Shown here: piece by piece, positions 24,570 to 49,223 of the stretch
How positions within the stretch are numbered: the stretch's first letter is position 1
Layout: each line of letters begins with the position of its first letter
DNA from: an uncultured Gammaproteobacteria bacterium
Lineage (GTDB): Bacteria; Pseudomonadota; Gammaproteobacteria; JAADHQ01
Reading direction: 5' to 3'
DNA: 49,843 bases
Assembly: GCA_947258655.1 (NCBI GenBank)
Contig: CAMYJD010000013.1
Span: forward strand, 1-49,843
Position numbers and translations under genes: made by a program
Notes under the pieces: generated by a model
Told to the model about the DNA's origin: nothing
Seen by the model: only the letters and a program-made list of their open reading frames with translations
Database searches by the model: none

Positions 24570-26075
<1,506 letters not shown>

Positions 26076-26098: not shown

Positions 26099-29000
26099 CT
26101 ATTGCTGGGCAAGGTCTATCCAGTCTGCCCCAATGCTCCCCTGCAAACTGTGCAGATATTCAATGCTGCGCAAATACTGCAATTGCTTTTCAATCTCACC
26201 CCGTTTGTTTTTCAACGCAGTCTGCTCGCTATCACTGACCCCGTGCTCACTGCTTAACGTTGCTTCGACATAAGCTGCATGCCTTTCCCATAACCTGATG
26301 TTACGCTGCTGCTCAATCAATAAACGCTGTTGATACCAGTCGCTGTTTAACAGATACTCCATCGTAAACATGTTACGGATATCGGGATCATCAATGCCCT
26401 TCCCTTCATAATGCCCCTGCGCCATGATATAAATAAGCGCCTTGAGCGGTGGACATGCATTATTGACCGAACCATCATTGATATACCCTTGTGCCACGCG
26501 CTGTTGCGCCTCGACGATATTGCACACACCATCGACAAAGGCCTCCAAATCCTGGGTTTCGGGTTTGAGCATGGCCTCATCGAAAACTATATCCGGATTA
26601 TCAAAAATCTTGCCCATATAGGCATGCACAAACTCAGATGTAATCCGGTAACCAAGACGACTTGCATGTATCTGCTCGCCTTCGTACTCAAAATCATCCA
26701 GTTTTTCCAGATAACCGTTGTCAATCATATACGCGGCGCTACGTTGTCCCACCGGGATCCGGCACCATATTTCCGGGATCAACAGACTGATATCATGCTC
26801 GACCTGACATTCTGGACCAACATAACCCGCCGCCGAACTGAAACCGTCATAAGCAGTTAAAATATACGATACCAGTGCATTGTTTAGGTCGGCCGTGAAG
26901 GGCAATGAATTGAAAGGCCCCTTGGTAAGCGCACCTTCGGATCCCGCACCTGTCGTGGAAGGCGATTTTCCGGTCAGACTGCTGATATAGTCCATAAACA
27001 GTTCTGGCAAATCCTGGTAGTGGATCGGATTATAAACTGCGAGGGGTCGGATTTTCTTTTGCGGATTTCCCGGATTATTGCGCCGTCCCGCCAATATGGC
27101 GTTGACCGGCATATGCACCGGCTTGCGCGGCGGGATACGCCGGTACAGGCGCACACCCATTTCAGCGATATATTTGTCCCGAGCATTGACCAGATCGGGG
27201 CGATTCTGTAAATAACGTACGTTTAGAGTGGGCCTGCCATCAACGATACGCGGGTGCGCTGAAGAAACAAAATATATTCCCGTCTCAGACTGCGCGGCAC
27301 GCCGAATCAGGCCTTGCATATTATCTGTGAACTTGCAGAAATCTATACTTCCCTCGATCAGCTCAATGGCAAAGTCTTGCTCAAGCGGTTCGAAATTACT
27401 GATAAAAGTATCATCGCCCGACAGGTCTTCCTCTGCCTGGGTATCGAGACCACGGTGAATGGCATCATCCGGTCTCTGAAATAGTTTCTGCTCGCAGTTA
27501 ATGGCAAGCTTGACACTATTTTGCGTGTAATCGGGATTCAGATTATTGAGATTGGTGCTGGCGATCGTTGTCGATACAGTAATGTCGTCCTCTGTCTGTA
27601 CCTTGTCGGCGCCTATATAATCCTGTCTTAGCTTGTATATACGCCAGGAACCCCGGGTATCCTTGCCGACCCGCAGATAGTTCATAACCAGCTTGCGATC
27701 ATCGTATTTCAATTCGTGACCAGGATGACCGTTGATAACGTCAACTGTGAAATGTTTACGCCAGTCACCTTCCCATTCCTGCCGATAAAATCGCTTGATA
27801 ATAAATGCCAGTGCACGTATATGCTGCGGTATAGTTGCCAGCCACGCGTTATATTCTTCGGTATATTCGACCCTGGATGGCATCAATAGCCTGATACTGG
27901 ACCCCAGGGAGCGATCATTGCTCAGGAATGAGCGGCTATCGGTGTTTAGTTCGCCGTCACGGAAACGATCACTGTAATCCTTCTTGAATATCTGTTCGAC
28001 ATGATCAAGATCTTCGTGAATATCCCCTACATATAAAGGACCCGAAATAATAGTCGGTGATATGGACTTGGAAATTTCCGACTTGCCACCGCCAGATACG
28101 GTACAGGGTTTATGACAGAAGGTACCTTCGGCCTCCGCGCCAATCAGGCGCCATGTCGGTGAACGCGGATGCTTCTCCATCCTGACCTTGTAGCCACAGG
28201 GATAGATATAGGTATGGTTCGCAAGCAGTTTGATTTGGTGGCAGATACCATCACGTTCCCAAGATACTGTTTGCTCAAGCAAATTGATGTGCGTATCTTC
28301 CGGAATATAGATAATGTCAGGATATTGCCTGTCAACACCATATCCTTCTTCCTTGACATGCATGTAATCGGAAAAGGTTTCAAGCAAGTCATGATAATTA
28401 TGCCCGTCCATACGAATCCGGGCATCCGGCTGAAAAATGTCGCCAAGGTTGTAGCAGGGATAGGCAAGCGCTCCGCCAGAATGCTCCTCTTCACAACCCC
28501 CCAGCAAATTGGCCGAATAACTGGTCTGCGACTTGACTTCCTTTTTACTGTAACCGTAATAATTATCCGCGATAATCGTTACAACCACACCGCGCATATC
28601 CCTGCATGTTATCTTGAAGGCCTGACCGTCATTATACAGGTCATCCTCGTTCCTCCAGAACATGCCGTCACGGCGCTGACGTTCGGTTGCCTGATCATAA
28701 TGAGGAAGACCCAGCTCTCTGGCACGGCATTTAAGCAGATGCGGGGCGAGAATGACACAACCGCTATGCCCGGTCCAGGCATGAATGTCCAGACCGGCAT
28801 CATTCTCGGGCAAGCAGGGATCGCCGCCATTTCCAAAAATACGCTCGACGAAATCCAGGTTTGAAACCAGGCTGCCGGGCGCAAAGAAACGTACTTCCAG
28901 ACTCTTTGCTGCAGAAACACCGGGAACCTCGGGAGAGACCGTCGGACGCAGCAGCAGTGAAACCCAAATTCTGGCCTGCTCATTCTGAGTGGAGGTAAAT

Positions 29001-29575
29001 GGCAGACGCATGACGTCATCCGGTGGATTCATGGCCCGTTCAAACAGCGCCAGGAATGCATTCACTGGTACTGCTTTTTTTCCTTCCGGCACAGGCAGGC
29101 CGCCTTCAACAATATGGAAGACCCCTTTGGTTGTACGCCGATCACTACCGGGATTATTGAGAATCCCCTGGATCAGACGATACGACTTGACATATTGCGA
29201 TGAGAAGTCATTTCCATTCGCTGGCAGGGACAATTCCCTGGCAAGGCCGGGTCTGTCCAGTACGAAACTGGTACCTGGCAGACTGACACTCTGCTCTATT
29301 CCGTTATCCCGTAAATACTGATTAAGAAAGTCCTGAATACGTTGATCCACTGGACAGCGATAATCGGCCAGAAGTCTTTTCTGCTGACGATAATTGCGGA
29401 TCAGATCCTCTGCAATACCCAGATAGTCATTATCACTCTGATCCTGGAATATTGGTTGTTCGAGCGCGGCAAGTTGCAGATTGATGTGCTTGACCTTCTG
29501 CAGACGCTCTTCTGTTACCAGGCCCGCAAGTCCCGATGTTTCATTCATATCATTCATGTCATTCATGTCATTCAT
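26099..29575 (-). CDS. Probable PPi-type phosphoenolpyruvate carboxykinase
   Basis: 1158-residue cytosolic protein. I infer the PPi-dependent PEP carboxykinase family (described from Entamoeba and Propionibacterium, about 1150 residues), which interconverts PEP + Pi + CO2 and oxaloacetate + PPi. Support is the length, a PEPCK-like P-loop SGGGKSEISKSI near the middle, and dense conserved-looking stretches such as DNYYGYSKKEVKSQ, EEEHSGGALAYPC and SSLTGKSPSTTGAGSEGAL. I recall these as features of that family but could not align them. Context agrees: PpdK (PPi-coupled) is in the window and glgP is 67 nt upstream in the same direction. The N-terminus is a four-fold MND repeat over the start codon, with no clear ribosome site. 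Converges on gltD. Confidence 0.6.
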   Translation of the reverse strand: MNDMNDMNDMNETSGLAGLVTEERLQKVKHINLQLAALEQPIFQDQSDNDYLGIAEDLIRNYRQQKRLLADYRCPVDQRIQDFLNQYLRDNGIEQSVSLPGTSFVLDRPGLARELSLPANGNDFSSQYVKSYRLIQGILNNPGSDRRTTKGVFHIVEGGLPVPEGKKAVPVNAFLALFERAMNPPDDVMRLPFTSTQNEQARIWVSLLLRPTVSPEVPGVSAAKSLEVRFFAPGSLVSNLDFVERIFGNGGDPCLPENDAGLDIHAWTGHSGCVILAPHLLKCRARELGLPHYDQATERQRRDGMFWRNEDDLYNDGQAFKITCRDMRGVVVTIIADNYYGYSKKEVKSQTSYSANLLGGCEEEHSGGALAYPCYNLGDIFQPDARIRMDGHNYHDLLETFSDYMHVKEEGYGVDRQYPDIIYIPEDTHINLLEQTVSWERDGICHQIKLLANHTYIYPCGYKVRMEKHPRSPTWRLIGAEAEGTFCHKPCTVSGGGKSEISKSISPTIISGPLYVGDIHEDLDHVEQIFKKDYSDRFRDGELNTDSRSFLSNDRSLGSSIRLLMPSRVEYTEEYNAWLATIPQHIRALAFIIKRFYRQEWEGDWRKHFTVDVINGHPGHELKYDDRKLVMNYLRVGKDTRGSWRIYKLRQDYIGADKVQTEDDITVSTTIASTNLNNLNPDYTQNSVKLAINCEQKLFQRPDDAIHRGLDTQAEEDLSGDDTFISNFEPLEQDFAIELIEGSIDFCKFTDNMQGLIRRAAQSETGIYFVSSAHPRIVDGRPTLNVRYLQNRPDLVNARDKYIAEMGVRLYRRIPPRKPVHMPVNAILAGRRNNPGNPQKKIRPLAVYNPIHYQDLPELFMDYISSLTGKSPSTTGAGSEGALTKGPFNSLPFTADLNNALVSYILTAYDGFSSAAGYVGPECQVEHDISLLIPEIWCRIPVGQRSAAYMIDNGYLEKLDDFEYEGEQIHASRLGYRITSEFVHAYMGKIFDNPDIVFDEAMLKPETQDLEAFVDGVCNIVEAQQRVAQGYINDGSVNNACPPLKALIYIMAQGHYEGKGIDDPDIRNMFTMEYLLNSDWYQQRLLIEQQRNIRLWERHAAYVEATLSSEHGVSDSEQTALKNKRGEIEKQLQYLRSIEYLHSLQGSIGADWIDLAQQ
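29540..29575 (-). repeat. 9-bp tandem repeat spanning the start codon
   Basis: Four copies of ATGAATGAY/A read in frame as MND-MND-MND-MNE. Every copy supplies an in-frame ATG, so copy-number slippage changes only the N-terminal length and the number of candidate starts. Confidence 0.85.
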
Positions 29576-32352: not shown

Positions 32353-35300
32353 CTAGGCTGCTTGTTCTGTAAATTCGATCAGGGAGCCCAGACTGGCAGC
32401 CCTGGGTTTAACCAACCAGAACCTGTTCATATAGGAGACAAAATCATCAAGAATCGTCTCCCCCCATGCACTGTGTGTTTCTGCGACGTAAGCCGCAATG
32501 CTTTTACGCAAATAATTACGATGAGCCTCGGTATCTTCAGTATTGATCCTGTGGATATCGACCAGCTCATGGTTATAGTGATCGACAAATGTATTGTTCA
32601 TATCCAGAACAAATGCGAATCCACCTGTCATACCGGCACCAAAATTAAAACCGGTCGGGCCCAGTACAATAACCACTCCGGCAGTCATATACTCGCAACA
32701 ATGATCACCGGCGCCCTCTACAATAGCGATTGCTCCGGAGTTGCGTACGGCCAGGCGTTCCCCTGCCTTTCCCGCCGCATACAGGATTCCACCTGTGGCG
32801 CCATACAGGCAGGTATTGCCAATTATGACATTGTCCTGACTGGGAAATACAGAACAGGAAGGCGGATAGATAACCAGTTTGCCCCCCGCCATTCCCTTGC
32901 CGACATAATCATTGGCATCACCCTCAAGGTACATATGCAGACCACCACAATTCCAGACGCCGAAACTCTGGCCAGCTGTGCCGCTAAAACGCATGATCAG
33001 CGGGCTGGACTCCATACCCCTGTTGCCATGGCGTCTGGCGATCTCGCCTGACAGGCGCGCTCCGATGGAACGGTTATTATTCTGCAATGAATAGGATAGT
33101 TCAGCCCCGGATCTGTCATCAATCGCATTGCGGGCATCATCGAGCATTTTTTCCGCAAGCTCGGCCTTGTCGAAAGGGATATTGCGCGGAAAATGACAAT
33201 ACCTTGGCTTTGTTCTGTCTTTCTCTGCTTCATATAGCAATGGGCGCAAATCCAGTTTTGATTGCCTGGCTGTCTCTCCGGGGAGTATCTCGAGCAGATC
33301 GAATCTGCCGATCAGGTCTTCCATAGCGTGAACTCCCAGTCGCGCCATCCATTCGCGCGTTTCCTGTGCAATAAAACGAAAAAGACTCATGACCCTCTGC
33401 ACATCACCCTTGAAGTGATGTTTACGTAAATGTTCGTCCTGCGTGGCCACCCCGGTTGCACAATTGTTCAGATGGCAGATACGCAGGTACTTGCAACCCA
33501 TTGCAAGCAGAGGTAGCGTGCCGAATCCAAAACTTTCCGCGCCAAGGATCGCTGCCTTAACCACATCCAGCCCTGTTTTCATACCGCCATCGATCTGTAT
33601 ACGCACCTTGTCGCGCAGGTCATTCGCACGCAATGCCTGATAGGTTTCACTCAAACCCAGTTCCCACGGGCTGCCGGCATATTTAACCGAGGTCAGTGGG
33701 CTGGCGCCTGTACCTCCATCATATCCGGAAATAGTAATCAGATCCGCATAGGCCTTGGTCACCCCGGCAGCAATGGTGCCGACACCGGGTTCGGATACCA
33801 GTTTTACCGAAACAAGTGCGTCCGGATTAACCTGTTTAAGGTCAAAGATTAACTGGGCCAGATCCTCGATAGAATAGATATCATGATGTGGTGGCGGGGA
33901 AATCAGCGGTGTACCAGGCACTGCGTAGCGCAGCCTGGCAATAAGATCATTCACTTTCTTGCCGGACAATTGTCCACCCTCACCCGGCTTGGCACCCTGT
34001 GCAATCTTGATCTGGATCACATCGGCACTGACAAGATATTGCGGTGTGACACCGAAACGCCCCGAAGCTACCTGCTTGATTTTCGAATTTCTATCTGAAC
34101 CTGCGCGCTCGAAGTCCTCACCCCCTTCACCAGAATTCGAACGTCCACCCAGCCTGTTCATCGCCATGGCCAGGGTTTCATGCGCTTCCGGCGACAAGGC
34201 GCCCAATGACATCGCACCACTCTCAAAGCGCGTACAAATACTATCAACGGACTCTACCGATTCGAGCGGGACAGGGTCACGCAAGGTCCTCAATGCAAAC
34301 AGGTCGCGTATAACGGTAACCGGTCTGTCGTTGACCAGTCTCGTATAGATCTGGTAATCATCATAGCTACCGGATTCAACCGCCCTGTGAAGTGCATGTA
34401 CGACGTCCGGATTAATTGCATGATATTCACCGCCATGCATATATTTCAACAAGCCTCCCTGTGCAGCTTGCTTGCGTGGCATCCATGCCTGCTGCGCACA
34501 CTGACGTTGATCATGATCCAGATCTTCAAACCCTGCCCCACCAATACGCGAGACCGTACCCGAGAAACACAGATCAATAACATCCCGTCCAAGACCAACG
34601 GCCTCAAATAATTGCGCCCCCCGATAACTGGTTATCGTTGCAATGCCCATCTTCGACAAAATCTTGTAAAGCCCCTTGTTAATGCCCTTGCGATAGGTCT
34701 GCACTGCCTGGGTCACCTGCATGTTAGGCTCCCCCCCGTTATCGCTCATATGACAGATGCAATCATAGGCCAGATAGGGATATACCGCGGAGGCACCATA
34801 TCCAATCAATGTCGCAAAATGATGCGGGTCCCTTGCCGTCGCAGTCTCGATGACTATATTGGTATCACAGCGCAGGCCTTCATTGATCAGGCGGTGATGT
34901 ACTGCGCCCGTCGCCAGTAATGCATGGACAGGAATCTTTCCCTTTTCAATATTTCTATCGCTAAGGATTACGATCTTGACGCCATCGCGTACGATTTTGA
35001 CAACCTCATCACAAAGCTGCATGATTGCTGCGTGCAAATCCATTGACTCGGGATAGTGCAGGTCAATCGTCCCGCATCTGAAGCGAGGGTCATTGACTGC
35101 CAGCAGTTGATTGAATTTACTCGCCGACAGTACCGGGCTGTTGACGACAATGCGCACAGCATGCTCGGCATTATGCACAAACAGGTTTTGTTCATTACCG
35201 AAGCAGGTTTCAAGCGACATGATTATACTTTCACGCAATGGATCAATGGGTGGATTGGTCACCTGTGCAAACTGTTGGCGAAAATAGTCATACACACTCC

Positions 35301-36804
35301 TGCTTTTTAGTGAAAATACCGGCAAAGGTGTATCGTCACCCATTGAACCGATGGCTTCCTGCCCACCTTCTGACAATACCCTTAAGACCTGCTCCAGTTC
35401 TTCTGAGCTGAGATGAAACATTTTCCGGCACTCTGCCAGGCGCTCGGGTTTCATTGCCACATTACACGCCTTCTCTTCCTGTAATGAAGATTCCAGGTAA
35501 GTGACATGGTCCTTGAGCCATTGCCTGTACGGGAACCTGCTTTTTAATTCATTGTCGATATGTTCCGGCAACAGTAACTCACCATTAAGAGTGTCGACCG
35601 CAAGCATATCACCCGGACGCAGGCGTCCCTTCTGCTGTACGTCAACAGCTTCGTAATCATAAACACCGACTTCAGATGCAAGGGTTATATGCCGGTCTTT
35701 GGTAATGACATAACGTGCGGGGCGCAAGCCGTTACGATCCATAACGCAGGCTGCATAGCGCCCATCAGTGAGGACAATCCCGGCTGGTCCATCCCATGGC
35801 TCCATATGCATGGAATAATATTCATGAAAGGCTCGCAAGTCAGGGTCCATCGAGTCAATATTCTGCCATGCCCTCGGTATCAACAGGCGCATGGCAAGAA
35901 AAATATCCATACCACCTGCAAGCATGGCTTCAAGCATATTATCCAGACTGTAGGAATCCGATCCGGACATGGATACCCATGGCCTGATATCTTCCATATT
36001 GGCAATCAGCTCCGAGTCAAACTTATAGCTTCTCGCCTGCGCCCAGTTACGGTTTCCCTGTATAGTATTGATTTCACCATTATGTGCCAGGTAGCGGAAG
36101 GGTTGTGCCAGACGCCATTCAGGCCAGGTATTGGTTGAAAAACGCTGATGAAAAATGCACAGTGAAGATGCCAGCCTGGTATCATTCAGATCCTGATAAA
36201 ACAGAGGCAGATTATGTGCCAGCACCAGGCCTTTATAACAAACTACACGTGCCGACAGTGTGACCACATGAAAGGCATCGTCCTTGGTTACGATCTGCTT
36301 TTTAGCACGTCGTCTGGCAATATACAGGTTGCGTTCAAACTGATCTTCCTTCAACTCAGCGGGCGCATTGACAAAGACCTGCTCGATTACGGGTAAGATA
36401 GAGAGTGCCTGTGGTCCGCATACCTCCGGATTGACTGGCACTGATCGCCAGCCAGCCACGTCCAGTCCCTCGGCCTTCAGTTCGGTTTCCAGGCGATGGC
36501 GTGCCCGCGCAGCCAACTCGTCGTCGGCATTCAGAAACACCATACCAACGGCGTACATATTAGCCAGCGCCAGGCCTTGTTCATCGCACACAGCACGAAA
36601 AAAGGCATCCGGCTTTTTCATCAGAATGCCACAACCGTCACCACTCTTGCCATCAGCAGCAACGGCACCCCTATGGGTCAGTCGTGTCAGGGATTTTATT
36701 GCCGTGTGTACCAGTGAATGACTGGCAATACCATCCATATGCGCAATCAACCCGAATCCGCAATTATCCCTGTCCAGATTTTTATCGTATAACGATGGCA
36801 TCAT
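32353..36804 (-). CDS. gltB: Glutamate synthase large subunit
   Basis: 1483 residues, normal family length. N-terminal Ntn amidotransferase: the catalytic Cys15 ([13 protein letters not shown]) is exposed after removal of a 14-residue propeptide. The central domain and the FMN barrel follow, with [20 protein letters not shown] and [15 protein letters not shown], and the 3Fe-4S loop [15 protein letters not shown]. The C-terminal beta-helix (GAxGG-type repeats, e.g. [10 protein letters not shown]) is complete. It makes glutamate from glutamine and 2-oxoglutarate with GltD. Lies 52 nt downstream of the alpha-E gene in the same direction, an unusual partner, and probably depends on the sigma-54 promoter at 39453-39468. 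Confidence 0.97.
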
Positions 36805-36856: not shown

Positions 36857-37852
36857 CTAGGCAGCAAATTCACTCTTGTCTTCCTCGTCTGCAGATTTTT
36901 CCTCGGAGTCCTGCGTCAGTCTCTCGGCAACAAAATAGGTCGTCGACATCTGATCATGCACCTGCCCCAGCATGATTTGCAGATTATTCATATATTCAGA
37001 CATCCTCGCATTTTCCATGTCTTTAACATCGGCATCGAATACCTGCCGTTGTACACGCCCCAGTGTACGCAGACATGCTTCGTTATCCTGCAGGGTACGC
37101 AGACTGTGTTCCACCTCGTTGATGCAATGACCAACCGCATGCGGGAACTGCCTGTCCTGCAACAGATAACCCAGCACAGCCTCTCCCCTTACCCGCACAT
37201 GCACATGGCGCCGGTACATCTGATAGGCTGCCAGTGACTCGAGGATACTTTTCCACTGGATATCATCAAAGGGCTTCAGATCATCGGCCAGTTTGGGTAA
37301 CAGATTACTGGCACGCACCTCAAGTACACGCGTGGTCATGTCGGCGCGCTCCAGGTTTCTGCCCAGACGTATGAACTCATAGGTCTGATCATGACTCATC
37401 GTTCCGCTCATATTGCCGCTGATCAGCTGGCAGCTTCTGATAACATGCATCAGGTATTCATAGCGACCTTTGCGCGACATGCCCTTGGCCTTGTTTTTTT
37501 CGGTATACATATGCAGGTCATTCAGAATCTCCCATACACCGCGCGGCACTATGGCACGCGATGTCCTCAGGTTTCCCCTGGCATATTCGACTGTATTGAG
37601 TATCGATCCGGGATTGAATTTGTCCGATAACAGGAATTTTACGACATTGCGCTCATTCAGCTCAGTGTAATGCTCGTAAAACAGGTCGGAAGAACCGGTA
37701 ATCGCCAGTATTGGCTCCCAACCGGGTGAAATACCCTTAGGCAAATCGAGCAGGAGATTGGCGTTGACCATAACGATACGAGCGGTATTCTCCGCACGTT
37801 CTACATAGCGCGCCATCCAGTAAAGTGTTTCTGCTATCCTGGATAAAATCAT
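36857..37852 (-). CDS. Alpha-E domain protein (DUF403)
   Basis: 331-residue all-helical protein of the alpha-E family (COG2307), starting ILSRIAETLYWMARYVERAENTARIV, the family signature. Biochemical function is unknown; comparative genomics ties it to circularly permuted ATP-grasp ligases and transglutaminase-fold proteins in predicted peptide-forming or peptide-modifying systems. AAGGAGG overlaps the stop codon of the upstream ATP-grasp gene, so the pair is tightly coupled. It matches the C-terminal half of the fusion protein at 42213-44804, making this locus a split paralogue. gltB follows by 52 nt. Confidence 0.9.
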   Translation of the reverse strand: MILSRIAETLYWMARYVERAENTARIVMVNANLLLDLPKGISPGWEPILAITGSSDLFYEHYTELNERNVVKFLLSDKFNPGSILNTVEYARGNLRTSRAIVPRGVWEILNDLHMYTEKNKAKGMSRKGRYEYLMHVIRSCQLISGNMSGTMSHDQTYEFIRLGRNLERADMTTRVLEVRASNLLPKLADDLKPFDDIQWKSILESLAAYQMYRRHVHVRVRGEAVLGYLLQDRQFPHAVGHCINEVEHSLRTLQDNEACLRTLGRVQRQVFDADVKDMENARMSEYMNNLQIMLGQVHDQMSTTYFVAERLTQDSEEKSADEEDKSEFAA

Positions 37853-37866
37853 TTAAATGATCCTCC

Positions 37867-39306
37867 TTATTCAACAATCCACGTATCTTTACTACCACCA
37901 CCCTGGGATGAATTAACGACCAGCGACCCTTTTTTCAGTGCCACACGAGTCAAGCCACCCCGGGTTACATAACTGCTTTCACCCGATAATATAAATGGAC
38001 GCAGATCCAGGTGGCGGGGCTCGAGTTTGCCATCACAAAGCGTAGGTGCGGTCGACAGACTCAACGTGGGCTGGGCAATATAGTTTCTGGGTTTCTTTTT
38101 AATCAGCGCGGCGAACTGCTCCTGTTCCTTTTTTGTGGAATTGGGGCCAATTAACATACCATAGCCGCCGGATTCATTGGCCGGCTTGACCACAAGCTTG
38201 TCCAGGTTCTCCAGTACATACTGTCGGTCCTGCTCATCCATGCACAGATATGTCGGAACATTTGGCAGGATAACCTTTTCCCCCAGGTAGTAGTCAATCA
38301 TCTTTGGCACAAAGGCATACACAACCTTATCATCTGCAACGCCCGCCCCCGGGGCATTCGCGATGGCCACCGTGCCTTTGCTCCAGGCACGCATAATGCC
38401 GGGGACACCGAGCGCTGATTCCGGCTCGAATACCTCGGGATCCAGGAACAGGTCATCGACGCGTCGATAAATCACATCCACCTGCTTCAGGCCCTCGATG
38501 GTGCGCATATATACGCAATCATCTTCAGACACTACCAGGTCAGAGCCTTCGACCAGTTCAACACCCATTTGCTGGGCCAGATAGGAATGTTCGAAATAGG
38601 CCGAGTTATAGATACCCGGCGTCAGAACAACAATGGTCGGATAATCAGCAGGACGTGGTGACATCGAGGCAAGCATGTCAAACAACTGGCTGGGATAATC
38701 GTCTACCGGCTGAATATTGTAGTCTTCGAACAACTCCGGAAATATCCGTTTGATGACCATCCTGTTTTCCATCATGTAGGAAACACCCGACGGCACACGC
38801 AAGTTGTCTTCGAGTACATACATGGTACCGTCACTGTCGCGTACCAAATCACTGCCACATATATGCGCCCATACACCCAGGGGCGGATCGATACCGACAC
38901 ACTGCTTGCGAAAATTGGCCGAGTCGGCGAGAACTTCCTTTGGAAAAATATTGTCCTTGATGATGTTCTGGTCATGATAGATATCATCGATAAAACAGTT
39001 TAGTGCCTTGACGCGTTGCTTCAATCCGGCCTCGATACGTTTCCATTCATGGGCCGAGATCACACGCGGGATAATATCGAAAGGCCAGGTCCTGTCGATA
39101 CCAGTACCTTCCGAATAGACCGTAAAGGTAATCCCCATGACATGCATGGCCAGCTCGGCAGCATTGTTTCTGTCCTGCAATTCATTTTCACGCAGGGATG
39201 ACAGGTACTTGCATATCAAATGCGCAGCCTTACGCGGCCTACCCGTTGAACCGATCAGTTCATCGTAAAATTCGTTCGCCTTGTACTCTTTCCATTTGAT
39301 CCGCAT
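37867..39306 (-). CDS. Circularly permuted ATP-grasp protein (COG2308)
   Basis: 479-residue predicted ATP-dependent carboxylate-amine ligase. Hallmarks are VLEDNLRVPSGVSYMMENR, VVLTPGIYNSAYFEHSYLAQ, DVIYRRVDDLFLDPE, GTVAIANAPGAGVADDK and a glycine-rich ATP loop LVVKPANESGGYGMLIGP. A free-standing enzyme of this type would join an amino group to a carboxylate, possibly on a peptide; the substrate is unknown. ATG 39306 has AGGA upstream and is preferred to the 39330 start. Followed directly by its alpha-E partner, then gltB. Preceded by a near-perfect sigma-54 promoter and an NtrC-like dyad. Confidence 0.9.
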   Translation of the reverse strand: MRIKWKEYKANEFYDELIGSTGRPRKAAHLICKYLSSLRENELQDRNNAAELAMHVMGITFTVYSEGTGIDRTWPFDIIPRVISAHEWKRIEAGLKQRVKALNCFIDDIYHDQNIIKDNIFPKEVLADSANFRKQCVGIDPPLGVWAHICGSDLVRDSDGTMYVLEDNLRVPSGVSYMMENRMVIKRIFPELFEDYNIQPVDDYPSQLFDMLASMSPRPADYPTIVVLTPGIYNSAYFEHSYLAQQMGVELVEGSDLVVSEDDCVYMRTIEGLKQVDVIYRRVDDLFLDPEVFEPESALGVPGIMRAWSKGTVAIANAPGAGVADDKVVYAFVPKMIDYYLGEKVILPNVPTYLCMDEQDRQYVLENLDKLVVKPANESGGYGMLIGPNSTKKEQEQFAALIKKKPRNYIAQPTLSLSTAPTLCDGKLEPRHLDLRPFILSGESSYVTRGGLTRVALKKGSLVVNSSQGGGSKDTWIVE

Positions 39307-39452
39307 TGATATTGATCCTGACCACACCATGCTTGCCGGCTATAAGCCAACAAATCCGGGTATAAATTTGTCTTTGGGCAGTGAAGACTGACAGTATCAG
39401 TTACACAGTAAACACTGGCATTTTATGTAAACCTTGCTCTGTTACAGATAAA

Positions 39453-39468
39453 TGCAATGACTATGCCA
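39453..39468 (-). promoter_or_regulatory. Sigma-54 promoter of ATP-grasp/alpha-E/gltB operon
   Basis: Minus-strand TGGCATAGTCATTGCA has a single mismatch to the consensus. Predicted start near 39443 gives a leader of about 137 nt. Confidence 0.72.
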
Positions 39469-39531
39469 CGCTATTATTATCACCAGGTTTTGTCTCTATG
39501 AAATATGGCCAATACTCCCTATGTTTTCACG

Positions 39532-39548
39532 CGCACGCATACGGTGCA
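39532..39548. promoter_or_regulatory. NtrC-like dyad for the ATP-grasp operon
   Basis: CGCACGCATACGGTGCA matches TGCAC-N7-GTGCA at nine of ten positions. Its centre is about 97 bp upstream of the predicted start. Confidence 0.55.
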
Positions 39549-39811: not shown

Positions 39812-39907
39812 GTTGGAATGTTTTCGACCAGTCTCTGCCACGGCAATCTGAACAAAATAAAGCATATTCCCATACATTTATGCATTAATATCCAGAAACA
39901 AGCAGTA

Positions 39908-39923
39908 TGGCCTGAATCTTGCT
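39908..39923 (+). promoter_or_regulatory. Sigma-54 promoter candidate of HPPD-like gene
   Basis: TGGCCTGAATCTTGCT has two mismatches in the -24 half, with GG/GC spacing correct and a perfect TTGCT. Predicted start near 39934, about 30 nt before the ATG. Confidence 0.5.
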
Positions 39924-39964: not shown

Positions 39965-41215
39965 ATGACAAATTCATTGAATTTTGCACGTCACGGGGAT
40001 AAGCAAAACTCCCCGTTCTTTGAAGAATACCTGCAGCGTCTGCTCGAGGAACGTGACCGTATCGGCCTGACCGACATGATCTATGAAATCGACGCCATTA
40101 TGCTGACTGTCGATCCTGGTCATTCCATTGAATATATTGGTGAATTATGTTTGATGACGCCGTATCACTACCTGGTGACACTGGAAAGTGAATCACACTG
40201 GACGCATGTTCTGCGCATTGATCCGCTGTTCCCGGACCTGCTGGTGCGCGAAGTCAAGGACCCGAAGATCCAGGGCATCTTCCGCAGTCTGAACGAAGTC
40301 TATCCTATCGGTGCACGCAAACCCAACAGTCGTTATATGGGCGAGATCCTGCGGGTAAGTGACCTGCATGGTGTGGTCGAACTGCAGAAGGAACGCGAGT
40401 TCCGTTTTTTTAGCCAGGACCAGATCCGTAAAATGGAACTGCCCGGTAACCTGGCCGTCGGCAAGCCATCCCCCTACACGCATAATGTTGTCTCGTATAT
40501 GGAGCGTCACCCTGAACAACTGCGCGTCTACGCACTCGGTATCAGCGCTATTCGCAACGATGTCCAGGATGTCTACCTGGCCGCAAAGGAAGAACAGAAG
40601 GCGCGTCAGATCGATGACCTGATATACCCGATTGACCATCTGGCCACGCGTATATACAGTCAGAACCGCGAAGTCGCCATCCTCGAATGGTTGTCACTAT
40701 CCAGTTACTACTATTGGGGCTCCTACGATATCAAGAACCAGAATTCATCGACGAATGTGACCAAGAATGTCCATTTCAGTGAGGAGGTGCGTAGTCCGGT
40801 CAAGGTTTTCACGGCCAACAACACACCCTATTTTGTTAACCACCTGGAAAAATTGCCATCACCGACGGAAACATTCGTGCGCAATTACGGCCCGCGTCTG
40901 CATCATGTTGCCCTGGCCGTGAAAGACGGGGAACGCAATAACATGGAAAACATCGAATACGTTGTCGACCAGATCAAACAGGCAGGCAAGGACTTTCTTC
41001 TCGACGTCATCGGTTCGAAGGAAGAGGGCCTGAAACAGATATTCTCCAATGCGTCAGATCATTCTTCGCTGATTATCGAATACGTTCAGCGCTTTGGCGA
41101 GTTTGACGGCTTTTTTACCAAACAGAATGTTGCTGAATTGACCCACGCTGCCGGTGTTGCCGATGAATTACTGGAGTTACAGGCAGAATCCATGGAGAGC
41201 GATGCGAGCGAGTGA
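39965..41215 (+). CDS. VOC-superfamily protein with HPPD-like C-terminal domain
   Basis: 416 residues. From about residue 218 it follows the 4-hydroxyphenylpyruvate dioxygenase metal domain: IDHLATRI (His225), then SPTETFVRNYGPRLHHVALAV (His314), then LKQIF...SLIIEYVQRFGEFDGFF (Glu372), a complete 2-His-1-Glu iron site in the right order and spacing. The first about 215 residues do not look like the N-terminal VOC half of HPPD; I do not recognise them. The C-terminus is acidic and lacks the HPPD gating helix I would expect. AGGAG lies 12 nt before the ATG. It is flanked by the two ATP-grasp/alpha-E loci and carries a sigma-54-like promoter, so it may act on the same unknown product. Tyrosine catabolism is less likely: no hmg or fah genes are near. 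Confidence 0.8.
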   Translation: MTNSLNFARHGDKQNSPFFEEYLQRLLEERDRIGLTDMIYEIDAIMLTVDPGHSIEYIGELCLMTPYHYLVTLESESHWTHVLRIDPLFPDLLVREVKDPKIQGIFRSLNEVYPIGARKPNSRYMGEILRVSDLHGVVELQKEREFRFFSQDQIRKMELPGNLAVGKPSPYTHNVVSYMERHPEQLRVYALGISAIRNDVQDVYLAAKEEQKARQIDDLIYPIDHLATRIYSQNREVAILEWLSLSSYYYWGSYDIKNQNSSTNVTKNVHFSEEVRSPVKVFTANNTPYFVNHLEKLPSPTETFVRNYGPRLHHVALAVKDGERNNMENIEYVVDQIKQAGKDFLLDVIGSKEEGLKQIFSNASDHSSLIIEYVQRFGEFDGFFTKQNVAELTHAAGVADELLELQAESMESDASE

Positions 41216-41322: not shown

Positions 41323-42216
41323 CTACAAACCATCAGACTCCAGCGCCTCGACATCAACAGATACACACAGCTTGTGTGTCTTGCCACCACCAAAGATCAC
41401 GCCTTTAAGCGGCGTCACATCGCCATAATCCCTGCCCCAGGCTGTAGTAATATGGCGTTCCATCGGGATCTGATTATTGGTCGGGTCGAAATCGACCCAG
41501 CCAAAATCGGGTACATACACAGAAAACCAGGCATGCGATGCATCTGCACCTTCGAGGCGTTTCTGCCCCGGCGGTGGAATGGTTTCCAGGTAACCACTGA
41601 TGTAGCGGGCCGGAATACCATGTGAAATCAGACAGGATATGGCCAGATGGGCAAAATCCTGACATACACCCTTGCGCTTTTTGAACACCTCCCTGAGAGG
41701 TGTTGCTATGGTCGTCGTATGCGGATCATAGTCAAAGTCGTTATGAATGCGATCCATCAGATCATGCACGGCCTCAAGCACCGGACGGCCGGGTGTGAAT
41801 GAAGCCTGGGCATATTTGTGCAGATTCTCATCGAGACTGATAAAGGGCGATTCCAGCAAATATTGCCTGGCATCGAGGTCCTCGCTGCGTGTACTGTTGC
41901 GCAAGATGTCATTGACTTCATCCCACGGAACCGGAAAGGCCATATCCAGCAAATTACCCAGCGGCTTGATTTCTATCTCACTCACTGCCGTTACAGTCAG
42001 CATCTGATGGGGCGTATGCACAGAAAAAAAGCACGCCCTGTTGCCGAAGAAATCATCCCTTTCGACAATCCTGGTCGCATAGGGATCCACATCAATCGTG
42101 GAACTAAAACAAACCTGGCGATGACTACTGCGTGGGAACAGATGCGCAAGATTGTAACAGGACGAGACTGATTTACTGTAGGTATAATGCGTAACATGGG
42201 TGACCCGGTATTTCAT
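41323..42216 (-). CDS. Transglutaminase-like cysteine protein
   Basis: 297 residues: an N-terminal beta-rich transglutaminase-associated domain (YRVTHVTHYTYSKSV) and a transglutaminase-core papain-like fold with catalytic Cys185 (KGVCQDFAH), His228 (DASHAWFSVYVP) and Asp244 (VDFDPTNN). Bacterial members are predicted peptidases or amide-exchange enzymes. The start overlaps the stop of the fused ATP-grasp/alpha-E gene by four bases (ATGA), with AGGGGGT upstream. Last gene of the three-gene operon; converges with the HPPD-like gene. Confidence 0.93.
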   Translation of the reverse strand: MKYRVTHVTHYTYSKSVSSCYNLAHLFPRSSHRQVCFSSTIDVDPYATRIVERDDFFGNRACFFSVHTPHQMLTVTAVSEIEIKPLGNLLDMAFPVPWDEVNDILRNSTRSEDLDARQYLLESPFISLDENLHKYAQASFTPGRPVLEAVHDLMDRIHNDFDYDPHTTTIATPLREVFKKRKGVCQDFAHLAISCLISHGIPARYISGYLETIPPPGQKRLEGADASHAWFSVYVPDFGWVDFDPTNNQIPMERHITTAWGRDYGDVTPLKGVIFGGGKTHKLCVSVDVEALESDGL

Positions 42217-44804
42217 TCCATACCCCCTGGTCGTGTAGGCACCAACTGCTGTATCTGCTCATCCTTGCGGAAGTAAGTCGTTGTCATGACATTGCTCAAT
42301 TCAAGCAACTGTTGCTGAATATGGTCCATGACACGGTCCATTTTAACGCGGATGGAGGCATCCGTGCCGATTTCAGCAAGATCAGATGCATCCGCTAAGC
42401 GCAATTGTGTCAGCAACTCGAGGACCAGCCTCTCCTCTGCAGACAATTGCTGACGACTGCGATCCACCGGCAAATAGCCAGCATGTGTCTGAATACGCGC
42501 CAGCTGATAACCGACTGAACGTGGATTGGTCTCATTCAGCAGAACCACATCAAGGAATTCAGGGATCTCGAAACCGAGGAGGAAATTGCGTTTATAGGTC
42601 ATAAGGCTGTCGAGAATGCTCAGCATCGACTCCAGCAGTACACTTTCGTCGTCCGGCTGTGCAGGATAAACGAGGGCAGAGCGTATCAGTGTTGTAGTAT
42701 GTACCGCCCTTTCAATCCTTCTGCCGATTTCCAGAAAGCGCCAACCCTGTTCATGAGTCATATTCTCGTTAATCAGGCCACTCAGGCTCATCAATGCTGT
42801 GATCAGGTTGTCGAGTTCATCATCGGCATCATTCAAGTGCTGTAAATTGCCCTGCTGGAGACCACTCAGTTCCATATCGATATCATTTATGACGCGCAAG
42901 GTATCCGTCGACAGACGGTCACGGACGCTGCGTGCAGCTACGAGCAAGGCAATCAGTGTTTGCGACAGGCTCCCCTGGCGGTTGTGATCCACGATCACTG
43001 ACAACAATTCCTCCTCGGGAGATGCGAGACGAAGCTCGGCATCTTCACCTACAAAACCTGGATACAGTTTCGTCGTATGGGTCACTACGCGCAATAACTG
43101 GTTGAGAACGAAATTGGACTGTCTACCCGATGCCAGAACCTGGGAGCTGTCTGCGAGGTATAGCTGCACAACACGTAACAGACGCACGAGCCCCTCGGCG
43201 CGTTCTGCATAACGACCCAGCCAGAACAAATTGTCGGCAACACGGCTGGGCACATCCCCACCAAGGGGTCTTTTGTGCATAACATGGGGAGACGACACGA
43301 TCAGCGTGTCCTGTTTTTCCGGTTCTGACGCCAGCACCCAGGTGTCCTTGCTGGCACCGCCCTGCTGACTGGACACCATAAAATTTTCACGTTTGTCGGA
43401 CACACGAGTCAGCGCCCCCGGCATGACAACATAGCTTTGATCACGCGAGACCAGGTAGCTGCGCACGACAACATGACGTGAATCCAGTTCGGCATTGCGT
43501 GCCAGCACCGGCGCTGCAGACAAGATCACCTGTGACTGCGCGACAAACATATGCGGCCTGGTTTCGATTTGTCTGATCAGGGCCTTGCGCTCGGTGTCAG
43601 CAAGCTTTGACGCAAACACCGTACGCTGCTTGTTTACTGGAACAAACGGCTTGATGACGAGCTTGTCCAGATTCGCCAACACATAGCGCCTGTGCTCTGC
43701 ATTGCCGCACCACCAGGTCCCGGCATTGGGAATACGTAAATCCTCACCGAGGAAATACTGCGCCAGCTGTGGCATGAACGCCATCAATCCAGGGTTCTGC
43801 AGAACACCGCTACCGAGGGGATTGGCAATGGCGACATTACCATCCCTGACCACCTGCAACAGCCCGGGTACGCCCAGATAGGAATCCTCGCGCAGTTCAA
43901 GCGGATCGCAGTACTCATCATCCACGCGCCGTAATATGACATCCACTTGCTGCAACTTGTCCAGGGTCTTGAGCCAGACGCGGCCGTCACGTACGGTCAG
44001 GTCATCGCCCTGGACCAGGGTATAACCGAGATAATTGGCCAGATAGGCATGTTCGAAGTAACTCTCATTGCCCACACCCGGTGACAACAGCACAATTCTC
44101 GGCTCGGCGTCTGGGTATGCGGCAAGTGAATTCAGGCTGGAGCGCATGGCGCGGAAAAAAGGTGCCAGGCGATGTACATGAGAGTCACGGAACAGGCTCG
44201 GCATTACGCGCGACATGACAATACGGTTTTCCAGTGCATATCCGGCACCCGATGGCGCCTGGGTACGGTCGGCAAGCACCTGGAATCTACCATCAGGACC
44301 ACGGGCAAGGTCGGCGGCATACAGATGCAAATAACGACCATCGCTGTTTTCGATACCGGCACAGGGACGCAGATAGGACGGAAAGGAATATACCAGTTCC
44401 GGCGGCAGTATCCCTTTCTCGATCAGCCTGCGTGGGCCGTACAGATCAGCCAGCACCAGATTCAGCAACTCTGCGCGCTGAATCAGTCCCGCCTCGATAA
44501 CACTCCATTCCTCACTTCCAATCAGCAGCGGGATCATGTCCAGATCCCATGGACGCCCTATCCCTTGTGGATCATTGTAGATGTTATAGGTGACATCGTT
44601 ATCACGAATCAGGCGCCTGGCTTCACGATAACGGCGTACCAGTTCGTCCTTGCCCATCGCATCCAGAGAACGCCCGAAATACTCCCAATGCGGACGCAAT
44701 TGCCCCGGTCCGGTGCACATTTCATTGTGAATATCATCAACAAAAGCGCAACTTCCGCATAATGTGTTGCCGTCCATGCTGGCCGTTGCATTCGGATCTG
44801 ACAT
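42213..44804 (-). CDS. Fused circularly permuted ATP-grasp and alpha-E protein
   Basis: 863 residues. N-terminal half (about 1-500) is COG2308 ATP-grasp: YALENRIVMSRVMPSLF, VLLSPGVGNESYFEHAYLAN, DVILRRVDDEYCDPLE, GNVAIANPLGSGVLQNP. C-terminal half (about 525-850) is alpha-E: PSRVADNLFWLGRYAERAEG. It corresponds to the separate genes at 37867 and 36857. The glycine-rich SGGYG loop of the split paralogue is replaced here by PFVPVNKQRTVFAS after the ATP-binding lysine (LVIKPF), so nucleotide use may differ or be lost. No strong ribosome site. Lies 48 nt after the DUF2126 gene and overlaps the following transglutaminase gene by 4 nt. Confidence 0.92.
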   Translation of the reverse strand: MSDPNATASMDGNTLCGSCAFVDDIHNEMCTGPGQLRPHWEYFGRSLDAMGKDELVRRYREARRLIRDNDVTYNIYNDPQGIGRPWDLDMIPLLIGSEEWSVIEAGLIQRAELLNLVLADLYGPRRLIEKGILPPELVYSFPSYLRPCAGIENSDGRYLHLYAADLARGPDGRFQVLADRTQAPSGAGYALENRIVMSRVMPSLFRDSHVHRLAPFFRAMRSSLNSLAAYPDAEPRIVLLSPGVGNESYFEHAYLANYLGYTLVQGDDLTVRDGRVWLKTLDKLQQVDVILRRVDDEYCDPLELREDSYLGVPGLLQVVRDGNVAIANPLGSGVLQNPGLMAFMPQLAQYFLGEDLRIPNAGTWWCGNAEHRRYVLANLDKLVIKPFVPVNKQRTVFASKLADTERKALIRQIETRPHMFVAQSQVILSAAPVLARNAELDSRHVVVRSYLVSRDQSYVVMPGALTRVSDKRENFMVSSQQGGASKDTWVLASEPEKQDTLIVSSPHVMHKRPLGGDVPSRVADNLFWLGRYAERAEGLVRLLRVVQLYLADSSQVLASGRQSNFVLNQLLRVVTHTTKLYPGFVGEDAELRLASPEEELLSVIVDHNRQGSLSQTLIALLVAARSVRDRLSTDTLRVINDIDMELSGLQQGNLQHLNDADDELDNLITALMSLSGLINENMTHEQGWRFLEIGRRIERAVHTTTLIRSALVYPAQPDDESVLLESMLSILDSLMTYKRNFLLGFEIPEFLDVVLLNETNPRSVGYQLARIQTHAGYLPVDRSRQQLSAEERLVLELLTQLRLADASDLAEIGTDASIRVKMDRVMDHIQQQLLELSNVMTTTYFRKDEQIQQLVPTRPGGME

Positions 44805-44852: not shown

Positions 44853-47800
44853 CTATTTACACGTAGGATAATAGCGTAAATCCAGGGTATAAGGATAGTC
44901 TGGATTGCGCTCTTCATCGACTGGGGTCAGATCTCCAGGGCTATGCCCGTAAGGCCAGAAGCGTGCAATACGCCGCGATTCGGCTACATCGGCATTGACA
45001 GGGAATGTCTCATAATGGCGGCCGCCGGCATGTGAGACATGATAGGTACAGCCACCAATGGAACGTTGATTCCATGTATCCACCAGATCAAATACCAGTG
45101 GTGCCTGCACCGGAATGGAAGGATGCAGGCCTGATGGCGGTGACCAGGCCTTGTAACGTACACCCGCAACGAATTCACCGCGGGTACCGGTTGGATGCAG
45201 CGGGACCTTGCGACCATTGCAGGTCACCATGTGCCTGCTGTCCGTCATCCCGCGGACCTTGACCTGGAGCCTCTCCACCGAGGAATCCACATAACGCGCC
45301 GTTCCCTGCGATGTCACTTCCTCGCCCAATACATGCCAGGGTTCGATGGCCCAGCGCAATTCCAGCTCGATGCCCTGATTGTCGATCCTGCCATAATGCG
45401 GGAAACGGAATTCAAGGAAAGGGGCAAACCATTCCTGTTTTAACGCGAAGCCAGCCCGTTGCATATCACATATTACATCCTTGAAATCTTCCCAGACATA
45501 ATGAGGGAGCATGAAGCGATCATGCAGTTCGGTGTTCCAGCGCACCGGCTTGCGTGTATAGGGTTGTTCCCAGAAACGCGCGATCAATGCCCTCAGTAAT
45601 AACATCTGCACCGAACTCATGCGCGCATGCGGTGGCATCTCAAAGGCGCGGAATTCGACCAGCCCCAGGCGACCGGTACTGGATTCGGGGGAATACAGTT
45701 TATCGATACAAAACTCGGAGCGGTGTGTATTACCGGTGACATCGATCAGCAGGTTGCGCAACAAACGGTCTACCAGCCATGGTGATGGTACTTCGCCTTC
45801 GGGCATTTGCTGAAAGGCAATTTCCAGTTCATACAGACTGTCATCGCGGGCCTCATCTACGCGTGGTGCCTGACTGGTTGGACCGAGAAACAACCCGGAA
45901 AACAGATAGGAAAGACTGGGATGATTCTGCCAGTAGGTAATCAGGCTACGCAACAGATCGGGGCGCCTGAGAATCGGACTATCTGCCGGCGTAGCCCCGC
46001 CAATGGTTACATGGTTACCCCCACCGGTACCGGAATGGCGGCCATCGAGCATGAATTTTTCTGTACCCAGACGTTCAAAATGCGCCTCTTCATAAAGTGC
46101 CGCCGTTGTCTGCACGATCTCGTCCCATGAATGCGCCGGATGAATATTCACTTCAATGACACCCGGGTCCGGGGTAACCGCCAGCCGCAACAGACGCGGA
46201 TCCTTTGGAGGCTCGTAACCTTCGAGTAATACCGGCATGTTCAATTCAGCGGCCGTCGCCTCAATAGAGGTCACCAGGTCCAGGTAATGCTCGAGGTGCG
46301 AGACGGGCGGCATAAACACATAGAGCTTGCCATCACGGGATTCAATACACAGCGCGGTATGGATAGCTTCGCCACTCCAGTCAGGCTCATCCACAGCGCC
46401 GGGCTGTTCGACGTCTGGTGTTGGCGCGGGTGGTATCAACTGGTCGTAACGTCGCGCCACTTCGCCCATGATATCGCCAAGCGGTGAACGCGGTTCGAAG
46501 GTGCAACGCTGCAATAGCCGATCGCGATGTTCTTCCGCGACCCAGGGCAATGAGCGCAAGGGCAGGCGATAACCCATCGGCGAATCGCCCGGAATCAGAA
46601 ACATATGCTCGCGCCGGAACTGCCACAGATTACTCTGCCACTTTCCGCCGGCCGACAGATCATTCCATTTAATCGGCAAGGTATAACCGACAATCTCGTC
46701 TATACCCTGCTCGAACAGCCGCAGCAGGCGCTTGCGTTCCAGCGGGTCTTTGAGTTTACTGTCCAACGGATCCACGTTATCCGGTAAAGTCCCTTCCTTC
46801 CATAAATAGTACACGACATCTTCGTACCCCGGGACTATCGTGCTCGTATCCAGACCGAGGTAACGTGTCAGAGTGGTAATAAAACGTCTAGCATCGTCGC
46901 GATCATATCCGTAATCTTTCTTTTCATCGGCAACGAGGTCCTCATGTTGCCATACCGGCAAACCATCGGCACGCCAGTAACAATTCAGGCACCAGCGCGG
47001 CAGCGGTTCACCCGGATACCACTTGCCCTGCGCATAGTGCAAAAAGCCTCCTGTCGCAAAACGATAACGCAGACGCTTGACGAGATCCCCGGCCATGTTA
47101 CGTTTGTCCGGACCCATGGCGGTGATATTCCACTCAGCACCATCCATGTCATCCACGGAGACAAAGGTCGGCTCGCCACCCATGGTCAGACGCACATCAT
47201 TATCCTGCAGTGACCTGTCTACCACATGACCCAGTTGCATGATTTCCTGCCATTGATCCTCACTGTAGGGTTTGGTTACACGAGGGTCTTCATGGATGCG
47301 TTGGATCTCATTATGAAAATAAAATTTGACCTCAGCCTTGTCTGAGCCGCCGGTAATAGGGGCAGCACTGACAGGATCCGGTGTACAGGCGAGAGGGATA
47401 TGACCTTCGCCCGCAAACAGACCCGAAGTCGGGTCCAGCCCTACCCAACCGGCACCGGGTATATAGACCTCCGTCCAGGCATGCAGATCGGTAAAATCCT
47501 TTTCCGTACCGGATGGCCCATCCAGTGCCTTGACATCGGGCTTTAACTGCACCAGATAGCCGGACACAAAACGCGCCGCCAGCCCCATATGGCGCAGAAT
47601 CTGCACCAGTAGCCAGCCGCTGTCACGACATGAACCGGTCGCTTTCTGCAGCGTCTCCTCACAGCTCTGAATTCCCGTCTCCATACGAATGTTGTAACCA
47701 ATATCCTTCTGCAATTGTTGATTCAGGTCGACCAGATAATAGACAATGTGTTCCTTGTCTGTGTTGAAATCCTTGAGCCATTGCTTCAATAATGGACCAT

Positions 47801-48167
47801 CCTCCTTGATCTCCCGATAGGGAATCAACTCCTTTCTCAGCTGCTCATCATATTCAAACGGGTAGTTTTCAGCATAATTCTCGACAAAGAAGTCAAACGG
47901 ATTAATCACCGTCATCTCGGCGACCAGGTCCACCTCCACCTTGAATGTACGCGTCTTTTCCAGAAACACCAGTCGAGCCAGATAGTTTCCGAAAGGATCC
48001 TGCTGCCAGTTGATAAAATGCTTGCCGGGATCCACCTTCAATGAATAGGAATGAATCGGCGTGCGGCAATGCGGCGCCGGGCGAAGACGCAGGATATGCG
48101 GTGACAAGCTGACCAGGCGATCATAGCTGTATTCGGTCTTATGATTGATTGCAACTCGTATGGCCAT
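44853..48167 (-). CDS. Transglutaminase/DUF2126 large protein
   Basis: 1104 residues. The N-terminal transglutaminase-like part (1-280) has the intact triad Cys180 (GSCRDSGW), His229 (DLHAWTEVY) and Asp245 (VGLDPTSG). The rest is the DUF2126 region (COG4196), with MGGEPTFVSVDDMDG, HTGG-like GGNHVTIGG, EVNIHPAHSW and TEKFMLDGRHSGTGGGNH, features resembling a glutamine-synthetase/ATP-grasp type amidoligase core. Predicted partner of the ATP-grasp/alpha-E protein in making or trimming an unknown peptide or amide. AAAGGA precedes the ATG. First gene of the operon, with a sigma-54-like promoter and an NtrC-like site upstream. Confidence 0.9.
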   Translation of the reverse strand: MAIRVAINHKTEYSYDRLVSLSPHILRLRPAPHCRTPIHSYSLKVDPGKHFINWQQDPFGNYLARLVFLEKTRTFKVEVDLVAEMTVINPFDFFVENYAENYPFEYDEQLRKELIPYREIKEDGPLLKQWLKDFNTDKEHIVYYLVDLNQQLQKDIGYNIRMETGIQSCEETLQKATGSCRDSGWLLVQILRHMGLAARFVSGYLVQLKPDVKALDGPSGTEKDFTDLHAWTEVYIPGAGWVGLDPTSGLFAGEGHIPLACTPDPVSAAPITGGSDKAEVKFYFHNEIQRIHEDPRVTKPYSEDQWQEIMQLGHVVDRSLQDNDVRLTMGGEPTFVSVDDMDGAEWNITAMGPDKRNMAGDLVKRLRYRFATGGFLHYAQGKWYPGEPLPRWCLNCYWRADGLPVWQHEDLVADEKKDYGYDRDDARRFITTLTRYLGLDTSTIVPGYEDVVYYLWKEGTLPDNVDPLDSKLKDPLERKRLLRLFEQGIDEIVGYTLPIKWNDLSAGGKWQSNLWQFRREHMFLIPGDSPMGYRLPLRSLPWVAEEHRDRLLQRCTFEPRSPLGDIMGEVARRYDQLIPPAPTPDVEQPGAVDEPDWSGEAIHTALCIESRDGKLYVFMPPVSHLEHYLDLVTSIEATAAELNMPVLLEGYEPPKDPRLLRLAVTPDPGVIEVNIHPAHSWDEIVQTTAALYEEAHFERLGTEKFMLDGRHSGTGGGNHVTIGGATPADSPILRRPDLLRSLITYWQNHPSLSYLFSGLFLGPTSQAPRVDEARDDSLYELEIAFQQMPEGEVPSPWLVDRLLRNLLIDVTGNTHRSEFCIDKLYSPESSTGRLGLVEFRAFEMPPHARMSSVQMLLLRALIARFWEQPYTRKPVRWNTELHDRFMLPHYVWEDFKDVICDMQRAGFALKQEWFAPFLEFRFPHYGRIDNQGIELELRWAIEPWHVLGEEVTSQGTARYVDSSVERLQVKVRGMTDSRHMVTCNGRKVPLHPTGTRGEFVAGVRYKAWSPPSGLHPSIPVQAPLVFDLVDTWNQRSIGGCTYHVSHAGGRHYETFPVNADVAESRRIARFWPYGHSPGDLTPVDEERNPDYPYTLDLRYYPTCK

Positions 48168-48884: not shown

Positions 48885-49223
48885 ATGAAGATCATATCGG
48901 CTATCATCAAGCCTGAAAAACTTGGTGACGTAACCAACGCCATAAGAGAGATCGGCACAGCGGGCATCACGTTAACCGAGGTCAAGGGATATGGCAGACA
49001 GAAAGGTCATACCGAACTATACCGCGGCGCAGAATACGACATCCACTATATCCCAAAAATTAAAATCGATGTTGCTGTGATTGACGACATGGTGACACAG
49101 ATTACCGAGGCAATCCTTGCCAGTGCCAAAAGTGGCAAGATTGGCGACGGCAAGATCTTTGTCAGCGATCTGGAGGAAATAGTGAGAATCCGCACAGGGG
49201 ATTATGGTGCTATGGCATTATAG
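48885..49223 (+). CDS. glnK: Nitrogen regulatory protein P-II (GlnB/GlnK family)
   Basis: 112-residue trimeric sensor of ATP/ADP and 2-oxoglutarate. T-loop LYRGAEYDIHYIPKIK retains Tyr51, the uridylylation site, and Tyr46. The B-loop ASAKSGKIGDGKIFV and C-loop RIRTGDYGAMAL are intact. GlnK is chosen over GlnB because of the sigma-54 promoter, but no amtB follows, so the symbol is tentative. GGAGGAA precedes the ATG. The DYGAMAL end differs from the usual TDEDAL/E.GEDAL, which may mark a lineage-specific paralogue. Divergent from the DUF2126 operon. Confidence 0.93.
   Translation: MKIISAIIKPEKLGDVTNAIREIGTAGITLTEVKGYGRQKGHTELYRGAEYDIHYIPKIKIDVAVIDDMVTQITEAILASAKSGKIGDGKIFVSDLEEIVRIRTGDYGAMAL

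Follow-up and report, generated by a model that had tools for sequence, protein, structure and literature searches.

A divergent HPPD-fold protein with an invariant predicted iron triad is linked to circularly permuted ATP-grasp, Alpha-E and transglutaminase genes

The stretch of DNA analysed here (hereafter the window; 49,843 nucleotides from an uncultured Gammaproteobacteria bacterium) carries an open reading frame with a plausible AGGAG ribosome site 5' of its ATG, present as a single copy in its own genome (3.48 Mb, 92 contigs). The reading frame and its length, as given in a preliminary description of the sequence, were borne out, and the frame is real and strongly conserved. The same description had called the neighbouring genes amidoligase-type, and Pfam assigns them to the circularly permuted ATP-grasp, Alpha-E, transglutaminase and DUF2126 families, in agreement with it. 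These genes and the other features of the locus are collected in Table 1.

Table 1. Genes, putative regulatory elements and predicted iron ligands at the focal locus (positions in the window)
Feature	Position	Strand	Basis or detail
Alpha-E protein	36857..37852	-	Pfam PF04168
Circularly permuted ATP-grasp type 2, divergent neighbour	37867..39330	-	Pfam PF14403/PF04174
Sigma-54-like element upstream of divergent ATP-grasp gene	39453..39469	-	GTGGCATAGTCATTGCA
NtrC-like palindrome in shared intergenic region, between both sigma-54-like sites	39533..39547	.	GCAC-N7-GTGC
Sigma-54 -24/-12-like element upstream of focal gene	39907..39923	+	ATGGCCTGAATCTTGCT
HPPD-fold protein, focal gene	39965..41215	+	416 aa; open reading frame; 92-member alignment; AF2 model; fold matches
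Layout of focal protein			Four VOC modules, residues about 39-97, 125-195, 220-285 and 311-376, then C-terminal helix
His225, predicted iron ligand 1	40637..40639	+	Invariant in 92; aligns with HPPD DHL histidine
His314, predicted iron ligand 2	40904..40906	+	Invariant in 92; aligns with HPPD QH histidine
Glu372, predicted iron ligand 3	41078..41080	+	Invariant in 92; aligns with HPPD E(F/I)IQR glutamate
Bacterial transglutaminase-like protein	41323..42216	-	Pfam PF08379/PF01841
Circularly permuted ATP-grasp fused to Alpha-E	42213..44804	-	Pfam PF14403 + PF04168
Transglutaminase fused to DUF2126 putative amidoligase	44853..48167	-	Pfam PF08379/PF01841 + PF09899

Relatives of the focal protein were sought by scanning 84,980 GTDB genomes with patterns that are biased towards its close relatives, which yielded at least 119 relatives, and the best 80 of the 119 loci were kept. 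Ninety-one homologues with 64-90% identity to the query were combined with it in an alignment of 92 sequences. Named hosts include Methylobacillus, Methylovorus, Methylobacter, Methylocaldum, Thiobacillus, Acidithiobacillus, Sideroxydans, Thioalkalivibrio and Halothiobacillus, and these are mainly methylotrophs and chemolithotrophs. Whole-genome profile searches added members in further groups, with 23 of the 31 genomes of one order positive, and a plasmid search with the focal protein gave no match. Searches of the protein against Pfam, NCBIfam, PHROGs and the PDB (phmmer; 34-sequence profile) returned nothing significant; weak matches to Glyco_transf_88 and methylmalonyl-CoA epimerase were dismissed as chance or partial VOC signal.

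The fold of the protein was predicted with AlphaFold from the 92-sequence alignment, giving a model with a pLDDT of 84.5 and a pTM of 0.86; an earlier structure prediction with five close sequences as input had given a pLDDT of 32.5. The top PDB matches of the model in Foldseek are all HPPD or hydroxymandelate synthase (HMS) over their full length (E down to 9e-16), with TM-scores of 0.5-0.68 among the fold matches, and VIA-align places 320 residues on human HPPD (3isq) at 3.5 A with a Z of 24.7, so that model residues 31-407 align with residues 9-380 of the human chain. As in the HPPD/HMS superfamily, four VOC modules in two halves span the whole chain of the predicted model, and those of the N-terminal half are beta-alpha-beta-beta-beta modules at residues 39-97 and about 125-195. 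The preliminary description had proposed an iron domain attached to an unrecognised N-terminal domain, residues 1-215 not being the usual first VOC half. No sequence match was found for this region, but the predicted modules and the alignment of residues 31-407 with HPPD contradict that proposal, and the full-length HPPD/HMS homology that the description itself had named as evidence against its view is found at the level of the fold. The model and the full-length structural match thus rule out an unrelated N-terminal domain, and the N-terminal half is, in the predicted structure, a VOC half whose sequence has diverged beyond recognition. Sequence searches of Pfam, NCBIfam and the PDB do not recognise the focal protein, which has the full-length HPPD fold in divergent form.

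Consistent with the fold, the C-terminal half carries the 2-His-1-Glu ligands that characterise the superfamily. His225, His314 and Glu372 had been put forward from the sequence as an HPPD-type triad; all three lie where they were placed, align with the HPPD ligands and are invariant, and loss of the triad in orthologues, which would have spoken against the assignment, did not occur in the 92 sequences. Profile-profile alignment against 16 HPPDs matches the triad exactly, with modest scores (E 0.0032, hhalign probability 9.9), and a MAFFT alignment of the C-terminal halves with 16 HPPDs agrees on the correspondence. Furthermore, the family profile matches a 167-aa single VOC protein (L103, E 3.8e-7) that in turn matches the HPPD model TIGR01263 (E 3.5e-22). 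HPPD-like single-VOC proteins of this type are the nearest sequence-level bridge to the focal C-terminal half; they differ from the focal protein in being half its length and in a gene context with an aminotransferase. A second weak match of the profile, L104 (E 6e-5), is to a distinct short protein encoded next to a ribonucleotide-reductase-like ORF.

To compare the substrate pocket with that of HPPD, we used the residues defined in the plant enzyme, where catalysis depends on a Ser267-Asn282-Gln307-Gln293 network and the Q293A change costs about 3,700-fold in efficiency; Asn423 binds the hydroxyl of the substrate there, and in the empty enzyme Gln379 forms hydrogen bonds with Asn423 and with the ligand Glu394 (PMC6750108). 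The counterparts of HPPD Gln379, Phe381 and Asn423 in the focal protein are Gln358, Phe360 and Asn388, all invariant in the 92 sequences. The network Ser267-Asn282-Gln293-Gln307 corresponds, by alignment and not by superposed structure, to Val265, Asn292, Pro300 and His313, of which Val265, Pro300 and His313 are invariant among the homologues. The replacement of three of the four network residues by invariant others makes HPPD activity unlikely, and the retention of the ligands, Asn388 and Gln358 beside an altered network suggests that the metal chemistry has probably been kept while substrate recognition differs.

The focal protein therefore shares with HPPD, as defined by TIGR01263, the full-length four-module VOC fold, the His-His-Glu positions, the QIF, E-x-x-QR and GF..N motifs and the C-terminal helix. 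In contrast to HPPD, it falls short of the TIGR01263 equivalog cut-off and has no NCBIfam match, lacks the long YY-containing insertion before the last strands, and is encoded among amide-ligase genes. The preliminary description had remarked that no tyrosine-catabolism gene is near; there is none, and HPPD is also absent from the genome itself, in which TIGR01263 has no match above E 0.001. The fold is equally that of 4-hydroxymandelate synthase (Z 24.5 with 2r5v), from which the focal protein differs in its 13-18% identity, its pocket, which is not conserved, and the lack of a peptide synthetase partner. Hydroxymandelate synthase provides a hydroxy acid that is built into a non-ribosomal peptide and, by analogy, would be the nearest precedent for the role proposed below, as an HPPD-fold enzyme making a peptide hydroxy acid.

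A survey of gene neighbourhoods upheld the proposed link to amidoligase-type genes through conserved linkage, co-occurrence and shared sigma-54-like promoters. Of the 50 loci flanked by at least 5 kb on either side, 39 carry one or more genes of the system within 5 kb and 15 have Anbu, and a co-directional system gene lies within about 320 bp in 46 of the best 80 of the 119 loci; since the loci are phylogenetically related, these linkage counts, like the promoter counts below, are not independent and are inflated by host kinship. The arrangements follow clade: the focal gene lies behind Alpha-E in Thiobacillus-type hosts, behind the transglutaminase in Methylophilaceae, behind Anbu in several gammaproteobacteria and ahead of DUF2126 in Methylobacter. 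One genome has two copies (L007 and L020): one lies divergently to ATP-grasp, in the arrangement of the window, and the other follows Anbu and closes an ATP-grasp/Alpha-E/Anbu run. Where the gene is unlinked (11 of the 50 full-flank loci), Alpha-E is encoded elsewhere in the genome in 11 of 11 cases. Among relatives, Alpha-E is present in 4/4 gene-positive versus 7/33 gene-negative genomes (Fisher p 0.005), and it is found in 22 of the 23 gene-positive genomes of the order of G029, the one remaining genome being the only exception to the occurrence of the focal gene solely where the system is present. The focal gene is missing from many Alpha-E genomes (7 of 11 among the relatives) and is therefore an accessory, not a core part. 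Taken together, these data identify it as an optional partner of the ATP-grasp/Alpha-E/transglutaminase (Anbu) system.

These neighbours are the families of the Anbu operon, which the focal locus also resembles in its predicted nitrogen-limitation regulation and, in many loci, in the co-directional position of the focal gene after Anbu, Alpha-E or the transglutaminase. It differs in that the window is without Anbu and that two published accounts of the operon describe no oxygenase there (PMC5666114, PMC6376114); the roles proposed for that operon are without experimental confirmation (PMC6376114).

Regulation by nitrogen was assessed with a 17-base sigma-54 score (threshold 8 or more; shuffled and antisense controls), which detects -24/-12-type sites upstream of 29 of the 91 homologues, compared with 0.55 in shuffles and 0 in antisense, mostly about 40-105 bases before the start. 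With mechanically called starts, a score of at least 8 was reached upstream of 16 of 73 focal genes versus 26 of 620 other locus genes (p 9e-7); ATP-grasp/Alpha-E genes are likewise enriched (20/104), and such sites also occur at the unlinked loci L011, L021 and L048. NtrC boxes are weakly enriched among sigma-54-positive homologues (6/35 versus 1.35 expected), and the source genome encodes NtrC. The sigma-54-type sites are in keeping with a sigma-54/NtrC nitrogen regulon, as are reports that growth on nitrate instead of ammonium raises the expression of the proteasome-like and ATP-grasp genes of P. putida about 16- to 22-fold (log2 4.0-4.4; PMC8050072) and that the Alpha-E/transglutaminase cluster of B. 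cenocepacia is NtrC and sigma-54 dependent (PMC5491218). In the window, genes for the glutamate synthase small subunit (24657-26075) and large subunit (32353-36804, assigned by its sequence only) and for P-II (48885-49223) lie on either side of the ATP-grasp set, as would fit a neighbourhood of nitrogen metabolism.

With the fold, the invariant triad, the altered pocket, the linkage, the co-occurrence and the promoter enrichment established computationally, the reading that we favour, with moderate confidence, is that the focal protein is an Fe(II)/O2-dependent 2-oxo-acid oxygenase of the HPPD/HMS fold serving an amide-bond system of nitrogen limitation. Its iron binding, O2 chemistry, substrate class and place in the pathway we infer as follows. 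The C-terminal half would carry mononuclear Fe(II) on His225, His314 and Glu372, and a 2-oxo acid other than 4-hydroxyphenylpyruvate would be held bidentate on the iron. Reaction of the bound acid with O2 would yield CO2 and an iron-oxo species, which would then hydroxylate either the shortened acid or a group tethered to that acid. The enzyme could act upstream of the ligases, making an acid that is coupled by amide bonds, or downstream, oxidising the ligase product; its partners would be the circularly permuted ATP-grasp/Alpha-E/transglutaminase/DUF2126 set, often with Anbu, expressed under nitrogen limitation through sigma-54/NtrC. The preliminary description had suggested, among other options, an oxygenase acting on an aromatic 2-oxoacid; the 2-oxo-acid oxygenase remains the best guess, but with most of the ring-positioning network of HPPD gone, an aromatic substrate finds no support.

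Extradiol dioxygenases also use His-His-Glu sites, and the protein may instead be a VOC metalloenzyme of other chemistry, such as an extradiol-type dioxygenase, an isomerase or a lyase, with the same site and no 2-oxo-acid co-substrate. The loss of most of the HPPD network leaves room for a different chemistry and the weak family matches of the protein are to generic glyoxalase models, but the fold search favours HPPD/HMS over extradiol enzymes and the QIF, E-(F/Y)-(I/V)-QR and GF..N signatures and the module order are those of HPPD/HMS, and we consider this unlikely. We would give about as little weight to an Fe(II) oxygenase that serves nitrogen scavenging and shares only regulation and location with the ATP-grasp/Alpha-E/transglutaminase genes, standing outside their pathway. 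The linkage could stem from shared regulation alone, and both the unlinked loci and the Alpha-E genomes without the gene fit such an enzyme, but the same partners return in several distinct operon arrangements and Alpha-E is kept in every unlinked genome.

2-Oxoglutarate is a classic nitrogen signal, and a non-catalytic binding or regulatory protein reusing the fold, for instance a sensor of 2-oxo acids or nitrogen status for the ATP-grasp system, would suit both the P-II gene of the window and the loss of three of the four catalytic-network residues. The invariance of the metal ligands and of Gln358, Phe360 and Asn388 would be unusual for a retired active site, and we regard such a role as rather improbable. 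An enzyme of the true HPPD, hydroxymandelate synthase or HPDL type that uses 4-hydroxyphenylpyruvate, for example towards quinone or pigment precursors, would have the same fold and iron ligands, and the genome lacks a standard HPPD, but this reading is very improbable given an invariant proline for the key Gln293, an invariant histidine for Gln307, an invariant valine for Ser267, the lack of TIGR01263 matches and the absence of tyrosine pathway genes nearby.

If the favoured 2-oxo-acid oxygenase is correct, HPPD-fold enzymes reach past aromatic 2-oxo acids. More speculatively, and only as a tentative proposal, the product that the gene set makes in chemolithotrophs and methylotrophs starved of nitrogen may be an oxygenated amide or peptide; the focal enzyme would then provide the step that needs O2, through a new reaction of the HPPD fold whose substrate is a 2-oxo acid that is non-aromatic or linked to a peptide. 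Genes of the ATP-grasp/Alpha-E/transglutaminase/Anbu set occur widely, and a putative oxygenase that is conserved, is linked to and co-regulated with them and has an intact iron site offers a chemically specific handle on Anbu-type systems that can be assayed through O2 uptake, CO2 release and iron-dependent turnover.

Several further genes were observed at these loci. In Methylobacter-type loci (L047, L049, L052, L054, L055 and L057), a citrate-synthase-like gene, recognised by eye (cluster c11), lies downstream of the focal gene within the ATP-grasp/DUF2126 run, and this neighbour might point to a substrate of the tricarboxylic or 2-oxo-acid kind. The window also encodes a TraL-like ParA-family ATPase (5369-6181, + strand; weak NCBIfam match), with relatives (c6) close to the focal gene in about nine loci. 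Finally, a 1158-aa protein without a Pfam or NCBIfam match (26099-29575, - strand) is a close match to the PPi-dependent PEP carboxykinases of solved structure 8e1u and 6k31, a resemblance that marks it as a known enzyme type missing from those libraries.
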